This document shows positions 8,972-18,226 of a stretch of DNA of 41,448 nucleotides, in pieces. Source of the DNA: an uncultured Colwellia sp. (GTDB taxonomy: Bacteria > Pseudomonadota > Gammaproteobacteria > Enterobacterales > Alteromonadaceae); contig CAJWZC010000026.1 in assembly GCA_913049915.1 (NCBI GenBank), forward strand, positions 1 to 41,448, given 5' to 3'. The stretch's first letter is position 1; each line of letters starts with the position of its first letter. The position numbers and the translations under genes are program-made. The notes under the pieces are model-generated. The model had not been told where the DNA came from. It saw nothing but the letters and a program-made list of their open reading frames with translations, and ran no database searches.

Positions 8972-9310
8972 TTAATTATCTCGATCATCATTTGCCAAAT
9001 TTATATACGTGATTAAGTCATCCATCAACTTTTTTTTGATTTCTAACTGATCCTCGGCTTGTAATTGATATTTGTCAGCAAGAAGTTGGTAGTCACTAGG
9101 AGCCAAGCTCACGGTTAGGCGAGGGCGCTTAGGCCTTTTGTTTATCGGTAAACCTAAAATATCACGAATTTGATCAGACGGACTTAAACCCGCATCGAGC
9201 GCCTGCTTACGAATTGACAGTTGGATCTTTTCGTCCATATCAAAAGCGACTTGTACTGCTTTTATCGCTTTAACAGATGATTGCCATTTCTCAGGTATTT
9301 TTCTCGCCAT
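8972..9310 (-). CDS. Small basic protein, possible tandem ribbon-helix-helix DNA binder
   Basis: A 112-residue protein with GGAAG 5 bases before its ATG. I do not recognise a named family. Two segments each look like a strand followed by two helices: VAFDMDEKIQLSIRKQALD followed by SPSDQIRDIL (about residues 22-52), and RLTVSLAPSDYQLLADKYQL (about residues 63-83). Strand-helix-helix with alternating residues in the strand is the pattern of ribbon-helix-helix (MetJ/Arc) proteins, so a DNA-binding or antitoxin-like role is plausible. The linker NKRPKRPRL is strongly basic. It is the last gene of the PspA/DUF350 cluster, 36 bases after the DUF2491 gene. If it binds DNA, the repeated palindrome upstream of cluster genes is a natural candidate site. 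This is inference. Confidence 0.55.
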   Translation of the reverse strand: MARKIPEKWQSSVKAIKAVQVAFDMDEKIQLSIRKQALDAGLSPSDQIRDILGLPINKRPKRPRLTVSLAPSDYQLLADKYQLQAEDQLEIKKKLMDDLITYINLANDDRDN

Positions 9311-10106: not shown

Positions 10107-10796
10107 TTACTTTTGTTTAGCTTTTAAACGCTCTAGTACTGAATTAGCACTATTGTCTTGTGAACCAATACCAGCGGCTTTTAATTGCGCTTGCAGTGAA
10201 GAATCAGAGTCTTCAGAATCAAGTAATTCAGCTGCCTTCATTTTATCATCAAACTTCTGCTGTTTAGCTTTAATGCGCTCTAATGAATCTTTGGCGCTTA
10301 ATAACTTAGAATTACTTGATGAAAAGTTATCAGTAATTGCTGATGTTGCTTTTTGTACACTTTCCGTGGTTTTAACCATAGAAAGTTGACGTTTATGTTC
10401 AGCAACTTGGCGTTCACTCTTCTTAACTAAGTCTTTCAAACGATCAGCACTACCACTGAAACTATCGTGGGCTTGTTGTTGATCAGCTAAAGTACTTTCT
10501 AAGTTAGCAATTTTTTCTGCGACAGCAAGTGCTAAGGTTTCATCACCCTTTTCAAGTGCTTGTGCAACATAACCTTCATGCTCTATAATTTCACGAGTTA
10601 AGCGATCAATCTCACGTTTTGCTGCCATTTGTTCAGCCATAACGCCAGTTAAATCACGTTTTGCTTTGGTAAGATGATTACCTGCATCACGAATTTCTTG
10701 TTCAAAAATACGGGTTGCATTAGCATCAATGATTGCTTCGCCTGCTTCTGATGCGCCGCCACGAATTGCGGTCATAATTTTTTTAAATATACTCAT
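10107..10796 (-). CDS. yjfJ: PspA/IM30-family protein, YjfJ-like
   Basis: A 229-residue, almost wholly helical protein: MSIFKKIMTAIRGGASEAGE is the amphipathic N-terminal helix typical of PspA/IM30. A long coiled-coil follows to about residue 170 with charged heptads. The C-terminal part (SVLERLKAKQK) is a short separate helix. PspA-family proteins assemble into ESCRT-III-like polymers on the inner membrane and help keep it intact under stress (family knowledge). This is the YjfJ branch rather than the classical pspABC operon member, judged from its neighbours: DUF2170 before it and DUF2491 after it, as in E. coli. A strong AGGAG lies 6 bases before the ATG. No PspF/PspB/PspC genes are present in the window. 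Confidence 0.88.
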   Translation of the reverse strand: MSIFKKIMTAIRGGASEAGEAIIDANATRIFEQEIRDAGNHLTKAKRDLTGVMAEQMAAKREIDRLTREIIEHEGYVAQALEKGDETLALAVAEKIANLESTLADQQQAHDSFSGSADRLKDLVKKSERQVAEHKRQLSMVKTTESVQKATSAITDNFSSSNSKLLSAKDSLERIKAKQQKFDDKMKAAELLDSEDSDSSLQAQLKAAGIGSQDNSANSVLERLKAKQK

Positions 10797-10844: not shown

Positions 10845-11258
10845 CTAAAGTAAGTAATCACTCATATCATCAATCACTTCAATGGCATTGTTGCTTAATA
10901 CCGCTAATTCATGTTCAACATCGGTAAAACTTGAACTAATAGATAAAGCGCCAAAGACTACATATTTATCACCAATTTTTGAAAATGATGATAAAGGCAT
11001 TGGGATATTCATTTCTAACATACTTTCATGCATTGCATTAATACAATCGGGTTTAACTTCTTCTGTACCCCATAAGTAACTGATACAAATTATCTGATCT
11101 TCTGTTACTGAAACAAAAATGGGTAACTCTTCACGGCCTAAAATACTAATTTGCAGCACGTCAACTTCGCCAGATATTGGTTGGCAATCAAAGCTCATTC
11201 CTGTGTCTGAATTATCTGCCAAGCTGTTTAAGTGATCGGCTATAGTATGAATATTCAT
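10845..11258 (-). CDS. yjfI: DUF2170 protein, YjfI-like
   Basis: The longest reading frame starts at 11303, but that ATG lies inside a palindrome and lacks a ribosome-binding site. The ATG at 11258, with AGGA 5 bases upstream, gives 137 residues beginning MNIHTIADHLNSL, the family's usual length. It has no membrane segment. Recognisable DUF2170 stretches are REELPIFVSVTEDQIICISYL and the C-terminal half (PLSSFSKIGDKYVVFGALS). The function is unknown; the gene regularly precedes a PspA-family gene, as here, with a 48-base gap. A pair of palindromes lies 40-95 bases upstream and probably contains its promoter and control site. Confidence 0.78.
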   Translation of the reverse strand: MNIHTIADHLNSLADNSDTGMSFDCQPISGEVDVLQISILGREELPIFVSVTEDQIICISYLWGTEEVKPDCINAMHESMLEMNIPMPLSSFSKIGDKYVVFGALSISSSFTDVEHELAVLSNNAIEVIDDMSDYLL

Positions 11259-11298
11259 GTATTTCCTATCCTTCTTTTCTTTAGTGAAAAAGTTAGAT

Positions 11299-11353
11299 GA
11301 CATATTATGTCGTCTGAGTTAAATTTAACATCTTGACATATTATGTCAAGATG
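11299..11353 (-). promoter_or_regulatory. Two palindromic operator candidates upstream of the DUF2170 gene
   Basis: GACATATTATGTC occurs at 11299-11311 and again at 11335-11347. The second copy is the core of a perfect 25-base palindrome (11329-11353; 12-base arms CATCTTGACATA). Its minus-strand arm supplies a consensus -35 TTGACA (11349-11344), with a weaker -10 candidate TAAATT 16 bases on (11327-11322). The first copy would then sit just after the transcription start. This arrangement fits a repressor site. The same 13-mer recurs at 15330-15342. Confidence 0.6.
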
Positions 11354-11463
11354 TTTTTATAAACTAATTGTAATCATTTTATAAATAGTGATTACCGGTA
11401 TTACAAAATAGTACTTATTTAGCTTATCGCAATTATTTTGATTACAACCTTTTAATTCAATCT

Positions 11464-13170
11464 TTAATTTAAGTTTTGTTGGTCTTGCCAAGCCTGTTGA
11501 TGTAACTGATAAATGGTATGGCTACCTAATATATTAATACTAATATTTTCTTTATTTTGATAAAAATTATTAGGAAAAATAAAAGCCGCTTTTAATATAG
11601 CTAAATTTAACCATTGATGAGTTACGGGAAGCTTAGTTAATTTTTTTAATCTCGTTAAGGGGCTAGCGCCACTCTTAGAGGCAATGGTCCAACCCCATTC
11701 GCCAAAACTTGGCACATTATCGTGGTATTGCTCTACATGGGAGAATTTAGCCGCTGCTAAAGTCTTTCCAATAGAAATGAATGAGTCTTTTGCATGATAT
11801 GGGCTAGTTGATTGAATCGCGATTAAACCATCACCTGAGAGTAATAGCTTAAGCCGAGCATAAAAGTTTACCGAATAGAGCTTGTTAAGGTCTGGGTGAC
11901 TTGGATCAGGTAAGTCAACAATAATGGCGTCGAATACTTGTCTATCTTTAAGCAATTGGTTAATGGCAATAAAAGCATCTGCGGGAATAATGGTTACACG
12001 TTCATCCTGCAAACTCTGTTTATTCAAGTGTAATATTTGACTTGCTAAACGAGGATTTACTAGACCTGTTGGCTGCTTAAATATATTAATCAACTCACTG
12101 TCTAAATCGATTAAGGTTACGCTTTTAGGATTATATTTCAAAACATCCCTTAAGGCTAAACCGTCACCACCACCAATAATAAGAATATTTTCATGTCGGG
12201 CTGAGCCTGCCATAACTGGCGCTACAAGATAATCATGATAAATATGCTCATCAATGGACGAAAACTGTAAGCGACCATTTAAATAAAAATTGATTATATT
12301 ATTTTGGTTAAGCCCCATATGACGTTCAGTAAAAGTTAGCTGTTGATAACGCGTTTTATCAGTATGCACAACTTTATCGAGATAAAGTAAGCTATTCATC
12401 TGATTAAGCCAATGATTACCATAATTAAACATTAATACAATGACTAAGGCTAAAGCACAATGTAAAGCGACAAATGTTTTACGCCAATTAAGGTATTGCC
12501 AATAACGTAGAATAAAAAAGGCACCCGCAATAAGATTTAAACTTGCGGTTATTGCCGCGGCCTTGCTGATATCGATACTCAATAAGAAGATAACCCAGAT
12601 AGCAGCGCCGACACCGGCACCAACATAATCTGCGCCATAAATAGTGCCTAAATTATTGGCAAGATGCTGTTTATGAATACTCTCTCGAATACGAGCAATC
12701 AATGGGATCTCCATACCAATAAAAAACCCAAGAATTGCGCCAAAGAAATAGGGACTTTTAAAGGCTAACCAACTTAATTGTTTGAACAGCCCACCCTGTG
12801 GTTTCATATCTGGCGGCAGAGACAACATATCAGCAATTAGCTGTGGAAATGTTTGGGTAATAGCAATTAAACCACCAATAATCAATATGGCTGAGCTACC
12901 TACTAAAGCAATAATTAGCTCTAACCAGACAAAACCATTAAAAGCACAACGCACTTTTCGGGCAGCAAAAGCGCCAAGTCCCATTGACACTATCATTAAT
13001 CCAATCATGGTATAGATAGTGCTTTCCATGACACCTAATACTCGTCCGGCGTAATGAGAGAGTAAATACTCATAAATTAGCCCACAACCAGCTAGCACTG
13101 CCATGGTTAAAATAAGCAGAATGTCGTCAAGTAAGTGAGATTGTTCTTGAGATAAAGTATTTTTTGGCAT
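11464..13170 (-). CDS. Membrane-fused spermidine synthase-like aminopropyltransferase
   Basis: A 568-residue protein in two parts. Residues 15-255 hold about seven hydrophobic helices with small-residue motifs (GADYVGAGVGAAIW). Residues 260-520 are a spermidine/spermine synthase fold with YLNGRLQFSSIDEHIYHDYL, GGGDGLALRDVL (residues 333-344, the decarboxylated-SAM binding loop), VTLIDLDSEL, and VDLPDPSHP at 418-426 where the catalytic Asp is expected. Soluble SpeE makes spermidine from putrescine; membrane-fused members are a distinct branch whose substrate is not settled. Association of such enzymes with DUF350 and PspA-family genes is known from comparative genomics. There is no good ribosome-binding site before the ATG, and a strong hairpin precedes the gene, so its expression may differ from its neighbours. 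Confidence 0.85.
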   Translation of the reverse strand: MPKNTLSQEQSHLLDDILLILTMAVLAGCGLIYEYLLSHYAGRVLGVMESTIYTMIGLMIVSMGLGAFAARKVRCAFNGFVWLELIIALVGSSAILIIGGLIAITQTFPQLIADMLSLPPDMKPQGGLFKQLSWLAFKSPYFFGAILGFFIGMEIPLIARIRESIHKQHLANNLGTIYGADYVGAGVGAAIWVIFLLSIDISKAAAITASLNLIAGAFFILRYWQYLNWRKTFVALHCALALVIVLMFNYGNHWLNQMNSLLYLDKVVHTDKTRYQQLTFTERHMGLNQNNIINFYLNGRLQFSSIDEHIYHDYLVAPVMAGSARHENILIIGGGDGLALRDVLKYNPKSVTLIDLDSELINIFKQPTGLVNPRLASQILHLNKQSLQDERVTIIPADAFIAINQLLKDRQVFDAIIVDLPDPSHPDLNKLYSVNFYARLKLLLSGDGLIAIQSTSPYHAKDSFISIGKTLAAAKFSHVEQYHDNVPSFGEWGWTIASKSGASPLTRLKKLTKLPVTHQWLNLAILKAAFIFPNNFYQNKENISINILGSHTIYQLHQQAWQDQQNLN

Positions 13171-13247
13171 GTAAGTTAATCGTTAATAAGTAGTAGTAAG
13201 TCGTATTGGGAGAAATAGCAGGAAGCTTTAATCGTTTTTAAAAATAA

Positions 13248-13281
13248 ACACCGCCATTGTCTGATAACACGATGGCGGTGT
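13248..13281 (-). terminator. Strong hairpin between DUF350 and aminopropyltransferase genes
   Basis: ACACCGCCAT (13248-13257) and ATGGCGGTGT (13272-13281) form a perfect GC-rich 10-bp stem around a 14-base loop. On the minus strand it is followed by TTATTTTTAAAAA. It could be a terminator or attenuator splitting the cluster into two transcripts. Confidence 0.6.
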
Positions 13282-13308
13282 ATTGAGTTAATTAAATTGA
13301 CAGATAAA

Positions 13309-14211
13309 TTATGCCATAAGTGCCGTTAATATTAAGGCGATAGCAATACTTGTCGCCATTTCTATACTCGCTACACCAATATTATGTTGCTGATCAACTT
13401 CTTCAACTAGATTGATACCCCAAAGCACAATACGTTTAGCCAAGGCGGTAAGTAGAGCTACAATTAGTGTCATAACAACACCAAACACTAACCAACCAAG
13501 TAAATTAACAACTAAAGTTTCAGGGCTATAGGTCAGGAAGTGACTAGCTGCAGTTACTGCTAAGGCTGTACTAATAACCTGGCCACTATAGCGAATCGCT
13601 AACGCAAGCTGGCCATTACTAAATGCTTCTTGCAAACAATCTTCTTGATTATTTTTAGCATATTGCTTCTCACGAAGTCGAGTTACTATGATTAAAACGG
13701 TCTGCGCCACAATAAAACCACTAGTGATAGCGATAAATGTGCTGAAATCTAAACCATCTACCCATAGTAATACTGCACGAATAATTATCGCTGTAGCAAT
13801 AGCACCGGCAGCATCAATAATACCAATAGTGAGGTTTTTTTCTATAATTAGCGCATTTTTATCTAAATGTTGTAGCGCTACTTTATCTTGGATAACACGA
13901 CCAATCTTTATAAGTAATAAACCATAACCGCCGTAAGCGAGCATACCAATAGCTTCCATAGAATAACTACTTGCAGCTTCTCCGGTAATTGCGCCAGTAA
14001 GAACTATACCAAGGGCTAGTACGCTACCAGCAACACTGATACCAAAAGCAAAGTTATCTTCTTTGGCCAATTCTTCTGTACTGTTAACCTTTGCACTGAT
14101 ACCTGAAAGGAATCGCATAGCGCCTAATAACAAAATGGCTATAGAAACATCAATGGCCAAATAAGCGAGTAAGTCTTGATTAACACCAACGAGTTCGATG
14201 AATGTGTTCAT
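13309..14211 (-). CDS. DUF350 integral membrane protein, YjfL-like (duplicated)
   Basis: A 300-residue protein with about eight hydrophobic helices. The DUF350 pattern appears twice: EDNFAFGISVAGSVLALGIV (about residues 50-70) and QQHNIGVASIEMATSIAIAL (about residues 275-293). Each is an acidic-polar entry into a small-residue helix, so the protein looks like two fused four-helix units, about twice the length of single-unit E. coli YjfL. The function is unknown; it is an inner-membrane protein. It is preceded after 42 bases by the lipoprotein gene. AGGAA lies about 10 bases before the ATG. The DUF350 assignment is confident; the duplication is read directly from the repeated motif. Confidence 0.8.
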   Translation of the reverse strand: MNTFIELVGVNQDLLAYLAIDVSIAILLLGAMRFLSGISAKVNSTEELAKEDNFAFGISVAGSVLALGIVLTGAITGEAASSYSMEAIGMLAYGGYGLLLIKIGRVIQDKVALQHLDKNALIIEKNLTIGIIDAAGAIATAIIIRAVLLWVDGLDFSTFIAITSGFIVAQTVLIIVTRLREKQYAKNNQEDCLQEAFSNGQLALAIRYSGQVISTALAVTAASHFLTYSPETLVVNLLGWLVFGVVMTLIVALLTALAKRIVLWGINLVEEVDQQHNIGVASIEMATSIAIALILTALMA

Positions 14212-14253
14212 AATTTTGTTGTTCCTATTCTTTTTTTATAGTCGACTTATTCG

Positions 14254-15246
14254 TTACTTCCCGCGTCTAAAACCGCGTGATGTGTTGCTATTAGAGTTCC
14301 TAAAACTAGAGTTTTTACTATTTTTAGATTTACTGGCGTAATTACTCTTTTTCACATTATTAGTGCGAAAGCGATTAGAACTTGTTTGCGCTGTTTTACT
14401 TTGGCCAGATAAACTCGATGATCCTGTTCTGTTTTTACTATATGGGCTAGTAAATTTTTGTCCGCGACGAGTAAATGATTTTTTAGTACGGGTATCAAGG
14501 GATGTTTGTTTTTTTAACTGGCTCGGAGAGCTGTAACGTGTCCTACCATAATCGTTGTAGTAGCTATAATTACGCTGTCTACCCCAATCATTATAAGAGG
14601 TACGTCGACCAAACATGTCACCCATCATGGAGTACATGCCATACCAAGCCCAAAAAGACATGCCATTACTACCTGTTTGCCAGTTACCATAACTTGGATT
14701 ACCAATTAACTGCTCACCGGTACCAAAGTCTTGAGCATTGTTGGCTTGTTGACTTTGCGATTTCGATAATGAGTTTATACGTGGTAGTTGACCATCAGAC
14801 ATATCAGCCAATACATTAAGAGGATCACTTAATGCATCTGAATATAGAACGGGATCTGCTGCTTGGTAAATATTAAGTAACTCATTGTAAAGCGCCTGTG
14901 AAGATTCAAACATTTTTGGCTGAGTCTTGGCAGTATTAATCCTATCTAATAGCGCTTTATACATAGGGCCATTAGTGGAAGCATCTTTACGGAATTCATT
15001 AATCAATGGCGCTAAATTAGCTTTATTAACCATTATTTTATCAGCATATTGGTTGATTAAGCTGGCATTGCGAACTTGGCCACTATTTAACGCATCACCT
15101 AACTGAGTAACTCTTTGCTCAGTTATTGGTAATTGTTGTTCGATTTGCTCTTTTACTGGATCACCACAGCCAGCTAAGCTAACCGTGGTAATTATGATCA
15201 AGAGTAATAAAAAAGGTGTTTTTAGTAAGTGCATTTCTGCCATCAT
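14254..15246 (-). CDS. Lipoprotein of unknown function with a basic low-complexity tail
   Basis: A 330-residue protein. The start is one of three nearby ATGs (15246, 15243, 15234) after AAGGAG; the choice does not affect the mature protein. A hydrophobic signal ends in the lipobox SLAGC, with Cys27 as the lipid-modified residue. Residues 28-160 are a probably helical domain. From about 170 on the chain becomes Gly/Tyr/Trp-rich (NGMSFWAWYGMYSMMGDMFG) and then a long Ser/Asn/Arg/Lys-rich tail ending RGFRRGK. I do not recognise a family; E. coli yjf clusters carry a DUF1190 lipoprotein in an equivalent role, but this sequence lacks its cysteine pattern. It is the first gene of the cluster, downstream of a consensus-like promoter. 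Retention in the inner or outer membrane is undecided. Confidence 0.72.
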   Translation of the reverse strand: MMAEMHLLKTPFLLLLIIITTVSLAGCGDPVKEQIEQQLPITEQRVTQLGDALNSGQVRNASLINQYADKIMVNKANLAPLINEFRKDASTNGPMYKALLDRINTAKTQPKMFESSQALYNELLNIYQAADPVLYSDALSDPLNVLADMSDGQLPRINSLSKSQSQQANNAQDFGTGEQLIGNPSYGNWQTGSNGMSFWAWYGMYSMMGDMFGRRTSYNDWGRQRNYSYYNDYGRTRYSSPSQLKKQTSLDTRTKKSFTRRGQKFTSPYSKNRTGSSSLSGQSKTAQTSSNRFRTNNVKKSNYASKSKNSKNSSFRNSNSNTSRGFRRGK

Positions 15247-15286
15247 CTCCTTAAAAATGCTATGTTATCGAAATAATTAAATTAAT

Positions 15287-15342
15287 ATTAACGACTAAGC
15301 ATAGACAATTGTCAATTAATACCATTAACGACATATTATGTC
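15287..15342. promoter_or_regulatory. Divergent promoter region of the PspA/DUF350 cluster and glnE, with palindromes
   Basis: On the minus strand, TTGACA (15315-15310) and GTTAAT (15292-15287) are 17 bases apart and lead to the lipoprotein gene. On the plus strand, TTGTCA (15309-15314) and CATATT (15332-15337), also 17 apart, lead to glnE. GACAATTGTC (15304-15313) is a perfect palindrome shared by both -35 elements. GACATATTATGTC (15330-15342), the 13-mer also found at 11299 and 11335, covers the glnE -10 candidate. A protein bound there could affect both genes. Promoter calls are by eye. Confidence 0.5.
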
Positions 15343-15376: not shown

Positions 15377-18226
15377 GTGACGTTATCATTTTCTCCGCTT
15401 TTAAAACAACAGCAAATAACCCAGTGGCAAAACTTTGTCGAGCAACATAGCACAGTCTGTGATGTATTAGCTGATGAGCAACTTAACGCTTTTAAGCAAG
15501 CAATTACTTTAAGTGACTTTATTCTTAACAGTGCGTTACAAGCTCCTGAACTTGTTATTGAGCTTTTTAGAAAACCTAATAAAGAAGAGCTACCAGACTA
15601 TAAATCCCTATTGCTTGAGCAATTATCTGGTTGCATTGATGAAGCGCAGTTACATCGAATTATTAGACACTTTCGCTTACAACAAATGGTTAAAATTGCC
15701 CTTGATGATTTAGTCTTTAATATTAGTTTAGACATATCATTAAAGCGATTATCTTCGTTAGCGGATGAACTTATTTTAGCTAGCTTACAATGGCTCACTA
15801 ATTTTTGTCAGAAAAAATGGGGCATTCCTACCAATATTGAAGGAGAGCAGCAAATTTTACTGGTTTATGGCATGGGGAAACTCGGTGGTAAAGAGTTAAA
15901 CTTTTCTTCTGATATAGATTTAATTTTTACTTACCCTGAAAGTGGTGAAACTCAAGGATGTCGGCGTAGTATCGACAATCAGCAATTTTTTACCCGCTTA
16001 GCACAAAAACTTATTGCTTCACTACATCAAGTGACTTGTGATGGTTTTGCCTATCGAGTAGATATGCGATTACGCCCTTTTGGTGACAGCGGTCCACTGG
16101 TACTGACTTTCAATGCTATGGAAGATTATTATCAAGAGCAAGGACGTGATTGGGAACGTTATGCCATGTTGAAAGCGAGAGTTATTGGTGAATCAAAATA
16201 CCATGAACAGTTATCAAACATGCTCAGACCTTTTGTTTATCGTCGCTACATTGATTTTAGTGTCATTGATAGTTTGCGTCGTATGAAAATGATGATTGCT
16301 CAGGAAGTTCGGCGAAAGCAATTAGTCAATAATATTAAACTTGGGGCAGGCGGTATTCGCGAAATTGAATTTATTGTACAAGTATTTCAATTGATTCGAG
16401 GCGGACGGGTAAAAGAGCTACAACAGCGTAGTTTATTAACTGTTTTGCCAAAATTGGTTGAGTCTGGTGAAATTAATGAAGCAAATAAAGATGTGCTAGC
16501 AAACGCTTACCGCTTCTTAAGACGTGTAGAAAATATTATTCAGGCCATAGCTGACAAACAAACACAAACATTACCTGATAATGAACTTGATCAGCAGCGA
16601 TTATTAGCCGTACTCTGCATCTATAGCTGGCCTGACTTTCTCATGGAATTAGCCAAACATATGAGTGGCGTTCACCAAGAGTTTGATTTGCTTATTGGAC
16701 TTGATAGTCCAAATCATCAAGCAGCAGATGAACACTGGGTGACACTTTGGCATAGCCGATGGAGTGATGAAGAATCTATCGCTTGGTTGGATCAAGAAGC
16801 CCTTACTTGGCAAAGTAATAAGGTGTGGCAAATACTGTATGATTTTCGAGAAGATACAGGAAAACGTAGTTTAGGTAATCGGGGGCGACAGGTTTTAGAT
16901 AAATTAATTCCGTTACTTTTATGTCGTTTACAGAAAAATAAAATGGCAGAACAAGTGTTAGGTAGAGTTTTGCAAGTATTTAGTAAAATAGTGACACGTA
17001 CCGCTTATCTAGAGCTACTTTTTGAAAATGAAGGCGCGTTAAAGCAACTGATTCATTTATGCCAAGCTAGCAGTTGGGTAACTGATTATATTGCTAAATA
17101 TCCAATCTTACTTGATGAGCTTATTGATCCTAAGTTACTACATAATCCACCACAACTGTCTTCTTATGCGGTAGAGTTGCGTGAACGTATGCTAAGAATT
17201 CCTGAGGAAGATCTTGAAGCGCAAATGGAAGCACTTCGTCAGTTTAAACAATCGCAACAATTACGTATTGCTGCCGCTGAAATTGCTGATGTATTGCCGG
17301 TAGCACAAATCAGTGAGCACTTAACTGCTTTAGCTGAAGCGATTTTATCAGAAGTGATCAACCTTGCTTGGCAACAGGTAAGCGATCGTTTTGGCGTACC
17401 GACTTCTTGCTTAGATGGCTTTAAAGAAAAGGGTTTTGGCGTTATTGCTTATGGAAAAACTGGTGGGGTAGAGCTGGGTTATAGCTCAGATTTAGATTTA
17501 GTATTTGTTCATCATAGTCAGCTTGATGAAGTCACAACTGGAAGTAAATCAGTACCTGCAAGCCAGTTTTATATGAAGCTAGCGCAACGTATTATGCATA
17601 TTTTTAATACGCGTATGAATAGTGGGATTTTATACGAGTTAGATATGCGTCTCAGACCTTCAGGCAATTCAGGTTTGTTGGTAGTACATTTAAATACTTT
17701 TGCTCGATATCAGCATGAAGATGCCTGGACGTGGGAACATCAGGCTTTAGTTAGAGCCCGGATGATATTTGGTAATGATGAACTTCGCCAGCAGTTCGTC
17801 AATGTGCGACAAGATGTTTTATCTCAGGTAAGGGAGTTCAATAAACTCAAAAACGATATTATTACTATGCGGGAAAAAATGCGTAGTCATTTGGATAAAT
17901 CTACTGAATCTATCTTTGATATTAAGCAAGGCACGGGCGGTTTAGTTGATATTGAATTTCTTGCGCAGTTCCTGGTGCTTGCTCACACCAACCAGCATGA
18001 TGATTTAATGCTGTATTGTGACAATTTAGGAATATTCAAACGTTTATTGAAACTTGGATTGTTAGAAGAAGTAGAGCAGCAGCAGCTAAATAATATGTAT
18101 CAGAAACTCAGAGCGTTAGGACATCAAGCGACAATGCAAAATGCAGGACAATTAATTGATAGGGAAAAGGTAGTTGGGCAAAGTGCTATTAGTAATATCT
18201 GGATAAAGTACCTTGTTGATGATTAA
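15377..18226 (+). CDS. glnE: Glutamine synthetase adenylyltransferase/adenylyl-removing enzyme
   Basis: I choose the GTG at 15377, with AAGGA 6 bases upstream, giving 949 residues. The ATG at 15338 has no ribosome-binding site and lies inside a palindrome. GlnE adds AMP to glutamine synthetase and removes it, under control of PII and glutamine. Two nucleotidyltransferase domains are visible: the N-terminal adenylyl-removing domain with YGMGKLGGKELNFSSDIDL (about residues 165-185), and the C-terminal adenylylating domain with YGKTGGVELGYSSDLDL (about residues 691-710). Each keeps the DxD metal ligands. RRVENIIQ and helical linkers match the family. Length and motifs are complete. The gene is divergent from the PspA/DUF350 cluster and convergent with the TcpQ-like gene. 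Confidence 0.95.
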   Translation: MTLSFSPLLKQQQITQWQNFVEQHSTVCDVLADEQLNAFKQAITLSDFILNSALQAPELVIELFRKPNKEELPDYKSLLLEQLSGCIDEAQLHRIIRHFRLQQMVKIALDDLVFNISLDISLKRLSSLADELILASLQWLTNFCQKKWGIPTNIEGEQQILLVYGMGKLGGKELNFSSDIDLIFTYPESGETQGCRRSIDNQQFFTRLAQKLIASLHQVTCDGFAYRVDMRLRPFGDSGPLVLTFNAMEDYYQEQGRDWERYAMLKARVIGESKYHEQLSNMLRPFVYRRYIDFSVIDSLRRMKMMIAQEVRRKQLVNNIKLGAGGIREIEFIVQVFQLIRGGRVKELQQRSLLTVLPKLVESGEINEANKDVLANAYRFLRRVENIIQAIADKQTQTLPDNELDQQRLLAVLCIYSWPDFLMELAKHMSGVHQEFDLLIGLDSPNHQAADEHWVTLWHSRWSDEESIAWLDQEALTWQSNKVWQILYDFREDTGKRSLGNRGRQVLDKLIPLLLCRLQKNKMAEQVLGRVLQVFSKIVTRTAYLELLFENEGALKQLIHLCQASSWVTDYIAKYPILLDELIDPKLLHNPPQLSSYAVELRERMLRIPEEDLEAQMEALRQFKQSQQLRIAAAEIADVLPVAQISEHLTALAEAILSEVINLAWQQVSDRFGVPTSCLDGFKEKGFGVIAYGKTGGVELGYSSDLDLVFVHHSQLDEVTTGSKSVPASQFYMKLAQRIMHIFNTRMNSGILYELDMRLRPSGNSGLLVVHLNTFARYQHEDAWTWEHQALVRARMIFGNDELRQQFVNVRQDVLSQVREFNKLKNDIITMREKMRSHLDKSTESIFDIKQGTGGLVDIEFLAQFLVLAHTNQHDDLMLYCDNLGIFKRLLKLGLLEEVEQQQLNNMYQKLRALGHQATMQNAGQLIDREKVVGQSAISNIWIKYLVDD

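Follow-up and report, generated by a model that had tools for sequence, protein, structure and literature searches.

A conserved 13-bp palindrome as the probable operator of a small regulator encoded in a DUF2170-PspA gene cluster of Colwellia

Gene cluster and palindrome in the window

The stretch of DNA analysed, hereafter the window, comprises 41,448 bases of contig CAJWZC010000026.1 (assembly GCA_913049915.1) of an uncultured Colwellia sp. It carries a gene cluster encoding, among others, a DUF2170 protein, a PspA/IM30 family protein and a last protein of 112 amino acids, and the upstream regions of this cluster contain three copies of a 13-bp word, GACATATTATGTC. The analyses indicated that the word is a conserved predicted operator and that it is very probably the binding site of the 112-amino-acid protein. 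The features are listed by position.

8972..9310, minus strand: 112-amino-acid last gene of the cluster, proposed operator-binding regulator (co-occurrence, homologue name, available text of PMC11237479)
9347..9988, minus strand: DUF4178-like protein (Pfam E 0.0088, below the cut-off)
10107..10796, minus strand: PspA/IM30 family protein, adjacent to the DUF2170 gene (Pfam PspA_IM30, E 1e-37)
10845..11258, minus strand: DUF2170 protein, YjfI type, CesT/Tir-like in the available text of PMC11237479 (Pfam, E 3e-38)
11299..11311, minus strand: candidate operator B, immediately following the predicted -10 box, around the inferred transcription start (exact match, alignments)
11322..11327, minus strand: predicted -10 box TAAATT (promoter scan, locus table)
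11335..11347, minus strand: candidate operator A, GACATA-N-TATGTC, whose GACA is the end of the DUF2170-pspA -35 box (exact match, alignments, promoter scan)
11344..11349, minus strand: predicted -35 box TTGACA (promoter scan, outer site of relatives)
11464..13170, minus strand: membrane protein with a spermine/spermidine synthase domain (Pfam)
13309..14211, minus strand: DUF350 membrane protein (Pfam)
14254..15246, minus strand: first gene of the cluster, lipoprotein-like by reading (no Pfam match)
15330..15342, minus strand: candidate operator C, between the first cluster gene and glnE (exact match, alignments)
15377..18226, plus strand: glnE, divergent neighbour, GTG start chosen, separated from the end of operator C by 34 bp

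The first ATG of the DUF2170 open reading frame (11303) lies inside a site, and the ATG at 11258 was preferred because homologue alignments begin there. The cluster has the same gene set as the second DUF2170-PspA operon group of Ravi et al. (2024; PMC11237479), whose available text describes a DUF2170(CesT/Tir)-PspA operon with a spermine-synthase membrane protein, DUF350, a lipoprotein, DUF4178 and sometimes a ribbon-helix-helix factor. Adjacent DUF2170 and PspA genes, the spermine-synthase membrane protein and DUF350 were recognised in the window by Pfam; the counterparts of DUF4178 and of the lipoprotein are, respectively, the match below the cut-off and the gene lacking a Pfam match.

An exact-match scan placed GACATATTATGTC at 11299-11311, 11335-11347 and 15330-15342 and found no fourth exact copy in the window, in agreement with the preliminary description of this DNA. 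That description had also considered chance unlikely, and the three copies indeed compare with an expectation of 0.0007-0.0016 for GACATAWTATGTC (Markov models of order 1-3). Its term palindrome holds for the arms, GACATA and TATGTC, but not in the strict sense of self-complementarity, since the length is odd and the central base is T or A. Among the 22 perfect 6-1-6 palindromes of the window, with 19 distinct arms, GACATA/TATGTC is the sole arm occurring three times. Copies with up to three mismatches showed no excess in the window (16 observed vs 16.6 expected), and thus only the exact word stands out.

In the genome of origin (3.8 Mb, 178 contigs), GACATAWTATGTC has five copies and its reversed control none. 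Of the two copies beyond the window, one precedes an SPFH-type gene by 96 bp (L004), and the other overlaps the start codon of a helicase gene read as rhlE-like (L005, 1501-1513). The confinement to cluster promoters that had been described therefore applies within the window but not genome-wide, where sites also mark other genes. The word is nevertheless not scattered at random: all 39 genomes of the genus hold 2-8 copies of it, with a nonzero control in 1 of the 39.

Promoter elements and inverted repeats

The TTGACA/TAAATT pair upstream of DUF2170-pspA has 10 of 12 consensus matches, a 16-nt spacer and a TG before the second hexamer. The promoter scans covered sigma-70-like elements only, and the three promoter-like sites called at DUF2170-pspA, vs 1.8 in shuffles, alone prove little. 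In the direction of the cluster, operator C overlaps the hexamer TAGACA, with TATTAA (15316-15321) 17 nt further on, according to an alignment by eye; this pair was not called by the scan, which called another pair there, on the plus strand.

A further reading is that the arms form hairpins in RNA or act as terminators. In its favour, the copy at 11335 is part of a longer perfect inverted repeat (11327-11355; 29 nt with 14-nt arms), and one terminator-like hairpin was called over the other copy, at 11293-11317 on the plus strand. The 29-nt repeat is not common to the aligned relatives. Among 98 sites examined (96 extra-cluster sites and two of the cluster locus L261), arms of 11-21 nt were found in 8, but in 74 the perfect arms are no longer than 6 nt, and pairing beyond them ranged from 0.24 to 0.40 by position without an excess beside the core. 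As the cluster sites also overlap promoter elements, the hairpin reading was rejected as highly improbable.

Long perfect inverted repeats (14-21-nt arms) centred on operators were observed at 11327-11355 of the window and at L004, L085, L089, L091, L100 and L110; in L004, L085, L089 and L110, the repeat lies between genes read as ilvA and SPFH. Where present, such repeats are perhaps combined terminators and operators, although most sites lack them.

Conservation among relatives

In 80 loci from named genomes, the best of 386 relatives and by title mostly Colwellia, Thalassotalea and their relatives, two exact sites were present within 250 nt upstream of DUF2170 in 78, one in L204 and none in L158. 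The presence of the word upstream of orthologous DUF2170-pspA genes, proposed earlier as a check, was thus confirmed in 79 of the 80, and also in further families. In the 78 two-site loci, the sites are spaced 35-39 nt apart and the outer one forms a TTGACA -35 box in every case (78/78). The first gene of the cluster has an exact site within 400 nt upstream in 74 of the 80.

A table of promoters from 41 loci of 13 families, 5 of these loci from the family of the window, showed TTGACA overlapping a site in 32, usually with a -10-like hexamer (TAAATT, TATCTT or TAAAGT) at a distance of 16-18 nt and, beyond it, a second copy of the site. The nine other loci comprise the three of f25, with a single one-mismatch site each, four of the five of f15, with a single exact site and TAGACA or TGGACA, and the two of f102, with a CCCATA-N-TATGTC pair. 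In other orders, a spacing of 15-18 bp between two sites occurs at some loci; at a locus outside the order with 63% GC, two exact sites 15 bp apart precede DUF2170-pspA-regulator.

In the eight f11/g18 loci (L079-L081 and L145-L149), GACATATAATGNC and GACATTWAATGTC occupy the two operator positions upstream of DUF2170. GACATTWAATGTC occurs at the operon in all eight sampled g18 genomes, while elsewhere it was found in 22 of 140 genomes, about the level of the reversed control (17 of 148). The g18 promoter, with a shifted word at the same positions, is a putative natural case of operator drift.

Co-occurrence with the last gene of the cluster

To identify the protein associated with the sites, 148 genomes of the order were scored for the 112-amino-acid family, the exact word, its reversed control and DUF2170, which were present in 50, 51, 2 and 68 genomes, respectively. 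Gene and word occurred together in 43 genomes, the gene alone in 7, the word alone in 8 and neither in 90 (Fisher 9e-22, shared descent ignored), so that the word is present in 43 of the 50 genomes with the gene vs 8 of the 98 without it. Site totals were 191 and 12, respectively. DUF2170 is present in all 50 genomes with the gene, and among the 68 DUF2170 genomes the corresponding counts were 43, 7, 2 and 16, that is, the word in 43 of 50 with the gene vs 2 of 18 without it (Fisher 2e-8, again ignoring shared descent). As judged from these distributions, the word tracks the last gene (8972-9310) and not the cluster itself. DUF2170 or PspA as the DNA-binding partner is disfavoured, because sites are absent from 16 of the 18 genomes that carry DUF2170 but lack the last gene.

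The association was also observed at finer scale. In the family of the window (f1), four sampled genomes with the gene have 5-7 sites and six without it have none, four of these six carrying DUF2170. In g14, one of eight sampled genomes (G160) has the gene and alone has sites, both of them at its DUF2170-pspA-regulator operon; the other seven also lack DUF2170. In three f25 genomes counted among the 43, the single exact copy is off-cluster, in the region that separates htpX from the adjacent gene (L138-L140; htpX was not called as a gene in L138). In a class sample of 274 genomes, three of them from this order, the gene was found in 10, the word in 10 and both in 7. Outside the order, the word was present in 5 of 8 genomes with the gene vs 3 of 263 without it, and these three cases are single copies in or at the start of genes not recognised as regulon members.

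It is unlikely that another transcription factor, encoded elsewhere, binds the sites while the last gene is merely co-inherited. Consistent with such a factor, the fold and binding of the 112-amino-acid protein are predicted from sequence, and among the 98 order genomes without the gene, seven have 1-2 sites and G149 has four. The DUF2170 genomes with the word but without the gene, however, are only G149 and G140 (one copy), and the assembly of G149 is 88% complete, its cluster contig breaking off within DUF4178, short of where the regulator gene would normally follow. The same rival is further opposed by the lack of sites in the other 16 DUF2170 genomes without the gene and by the association in other orders. 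The co-occurrence therefore supports the view of the preliminary description that the word is the operator of a dedicated regulator, specifically of the small cluster protein, which would bind it.

Sites outside the cluster

Among the sites listed, 90 extra-cluster stretches were fetched (L004, L005, L085-L141 and L254-L285 minus L261; L141 from a genome without the gene). Gene families were defined by mutual BLAST, and the Pfam check was made on representatives only. In 53 of the 90 loci, the start of a gene of a recurrent family lies near the site, and these families span up to 7 genera. They comprise band-7/SPFH proteins (12 loci), M48 peptidases (HtpX; 12), NhaA (10), YqiJ-like proteins (9), NfeD (7), a second PspA (6) and the cluster-type PspA (1). 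Four of the seven NfeD loci are also counted under SPFH, where an SPFH gene follows, and the nine YqiJ-like loci combine three from a group with YqiJ Pfam domains and six from a group whose representative had no Pfam match. Less frequent neighbours are carbonic anhydrases (3 loci), YbjQ (2), M16 (2) and M17 (2) peptidases and an Mrp/complex-I-type antiporter (1). Two sets of targets are ambiguous because a divergent gene shares the site: an Lrp/AsnC-type gene at the NhaA sites of g1, g7 and g8, and an S51 peptidase gene at several HtpX sites of g13 and g22. In related marine bacteria, the palindrome also marks, at the level of sequence, genes for envelope functions and ion balance outside the cluster.

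A second pspA gene with a preceding small protein of about 100 amino acids carries the operator in relatives (L087, L092, L105, L109, L114 and L117), although PspF is also present in the genome of the window. In that genome, one-mismatch sites precede a BI-1/YccA-like membrane gene by reading (L286) and an antiporter gene (L289); a closely related antiporter gene of another species (L108, Proton_antipo_M by Pfam) carries an exact site.

That the 13-mer is kept only as a strong sigma-70 promoter element, TTGACA with an AT-rich spacer, would agree with the -35 box contained in operator A. This reading leaves unexplained why the right arm TATGTC is present, why a second copy follows the -10 box, why copies occur without a fixed -10 and why the word is nearly absent where the regulator gene is missing, and it was rejected as having very little probability.

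The proposed regulator and its operon variants

In the available text of PMC11237479, a transcription factor with a ribbon-helix-helix domain is the final gene of such operons in some cases, and one source name of a homologue (P0048) reads ribbon-helix-helix/CopG. A NikA-like Pfam match was found in 4 of 43 members of the 112-amino-acid family (best E 0.015, below the cut-off). A PDB sequence search with the 112-amino-acid protein returned nothing relevant, and its distant homologues gave no firm answer for a ribbon-helix-helix fold. The protein may hold two ribbon-helix-helix-like units in one chain; a half-against-half comparison gave E 0.0015 and a probability of 16.5%, in an alignment register that does not support two such units.

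Ribbon-helix-helix repressors of the MetJ/Arc/CopG type are small proteins that exert autorepression through short palindromes. The 112-amino-acid protein resembles them in its small size and in its proposed autorepression via short palindromes, but differs in that its sequence similarity is too weak to place it there.

The operon occurs in reduced forms. In G160 and G424 it consists of DUF2170, PspA and the regulator, with a YqiJ-like gene added behind it in G160, while in f15 and f25 a short degenerate coiled-coil protein, PspA-like at its C-terminal end by reading, takes the place of PspA. Such a PspA-like short coil lies between DUF2170 and the regulator at 7344-7910 of L142 and at 1454-2077 of L068, in two lineages. 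In G363, a further DUF2170-like gene follows a spermine-synthase-like membrane gene (by reading), and two exact sites 18 bp apart are situated at its start (L329, 466-496).

Several observations weigh against the small protein as an operator-binding regulator of the operon and of a wider regulon. No member of the family (43 analysed) matched a ribbon-helix-helix family over the Pfam cut-off, and hhalign to RHH_1, a weak test that took in 7 of 30 fetched RHH_1 loci, gave E 0.004 and a probability of 8.5%, with E 0.059 for the reversed control. The seven gene-only genomes of the order all belong to g18, lacking the exact word and carrying GACATATAATGNC and GACATTWAATGTC, and in the eighth g18 genome, which is one of the 43, the word is restricted to an unrelated open reading frame (L260). 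L158, the locus without a site upstream of DUF2170, is among the closest relatives by the 112-amino-acid protein. In G061, the regulator gene stands with DUF4178, apart from DUF2170-PspA, and neither locus has a site with up to two mismatches; another pspA gene of this genome carries a site pair 36 bp apart. In G417, neither DUF2170 nor a site with up to two mismatches was found in the 8 kb around the regulator gene. Autorepression and the triad of DUF2170, PspA and regulator are consequently not universal. Outside the cluster, 37 of the 90 loci fall outside the recurrent families; apart from the less frequent neighbours named above, these are unrelated or unrecognised and some will be chance. 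Neither a fixed -10 spacing nor a uniform -10 box was found behind the extra-cluster sites, and one-mismatch sites in the genome of the window are barely above the control (8 vs 5) and uninformative as a set.

Proposed regulation

From the sites, their positions and conservation, the co-occurrence and the gene families, we infer binding, repression and a signal as follows. The 112-amino-acid protein is probably a repressor acting at GACATA-N-TATGTC, governing its own operon and a scattered regulon of envelope and ion-balance genes. It would occupy operator A, with the -35 box inside it, and operator B, over the start region, and the DUF2170-pspA-DUF4178-regulator operon would thereby be autorepressed; for the upstream half of the cluster, operator C would likewise cover the -35 region. 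An intrinsically good promoter with one site that includes its -35 box and another downstream of its -10 box fits repression, and the regulator gene inside the operon implies autorepression where sites exist. The same protein would repress the SPFH/band-7, HtpX, NhaA, NfeD, second PspA and YqiJ-type genes.

Activators also use sites abutting or overlapping the -35 box. An activating role of the 112-amino-acid protein at these sites is, however, improbable, as the operon in the two-site loci has a consensus -35 box, for which no activator is required, and operator B is located downstream of the -10 box.

Concerning the signal for the proposed repressor, the regulon content points to envelope and proton/sodium-gradient stress, which would relieve repression, perhaps via PspA or DUF2170 as a partner. 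A role of these proteins in release is suggested by the joint retention of DUF2170, a PspA-like coil and the regulator in most of the reduced operons seen, and the relation between PspA and PspF is the analogy behind it. An extended model can be put forward tentatively, as a possibility considerably less probable than repression itself: a PspF-independent second Psp-type response, in which the PspA-like coil and the DUF2170 chaperone would sense the state of the membrane and directly antagonise or release the repressor. The triad would then be a minimal switch that also controls SPFH, HtpX, NfeD and Na+/H+ antiporter genes in several gammaproteobacterial families.

Relation to known systems and significance

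The phage-shock (Psp) response is controlled by PspF and sigma-54. The cluster of the window shares with it a PspA-family effector and the theme of envelope stress, but differs in having a sigma-70-like promoter with candidate operators. No pspF gene lies beside pspA in the window (contig C26), and the only PspF over the cut-off in the genome is on contig C33.

DUF2170 and PspA-type genes likewise share an operon in the bac operon of Pseudomonas aeruginosa (PMC10948618), for which the available text proposes a sigma-54 site upstream of bacA and reports no spermidine synthase homologue in or around the operon. The same holds for yjfIJKL of Escherichia coli (PMC12492005), where DUF2170 and PspA-like genes occur with YjfL. 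In the available text of that study, yjfIJKL was upregulated in heat-evolved strains, a promoter deletion was predicted by the authors as the cause, and no regulator of the 112-amino-acid kind is described. PMC11237479 gives no binding site in its available text, and the term operator occurs 0 times in its main text; relative to it, the present analysis adds, as proposals, an operator, the link between operator and regulator and a wider regulon.

No report of this operator or regulon was found in the open-licence literature, including the available text of PMC11237479, PMC12492005, PMC10948618, PMC3223726 and PMC5343134 (subscription papers and RegPrecise were outside the scope), and the letters of the word appeared there, in the text available, in one unrelated plant study only. 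The regulation of DUF2170-PspA operons is largely open in this literature, and a conserved 13-bp predicted operator with a named candidate regulator makes it testable. The other putative targets, HtpX, SPFH, NfeD and NhaA, would link these operons with membrane quality control and with ion balance in marine bacteria, and genome searches for the operator may help to assign functions to unknown envelope proteins.

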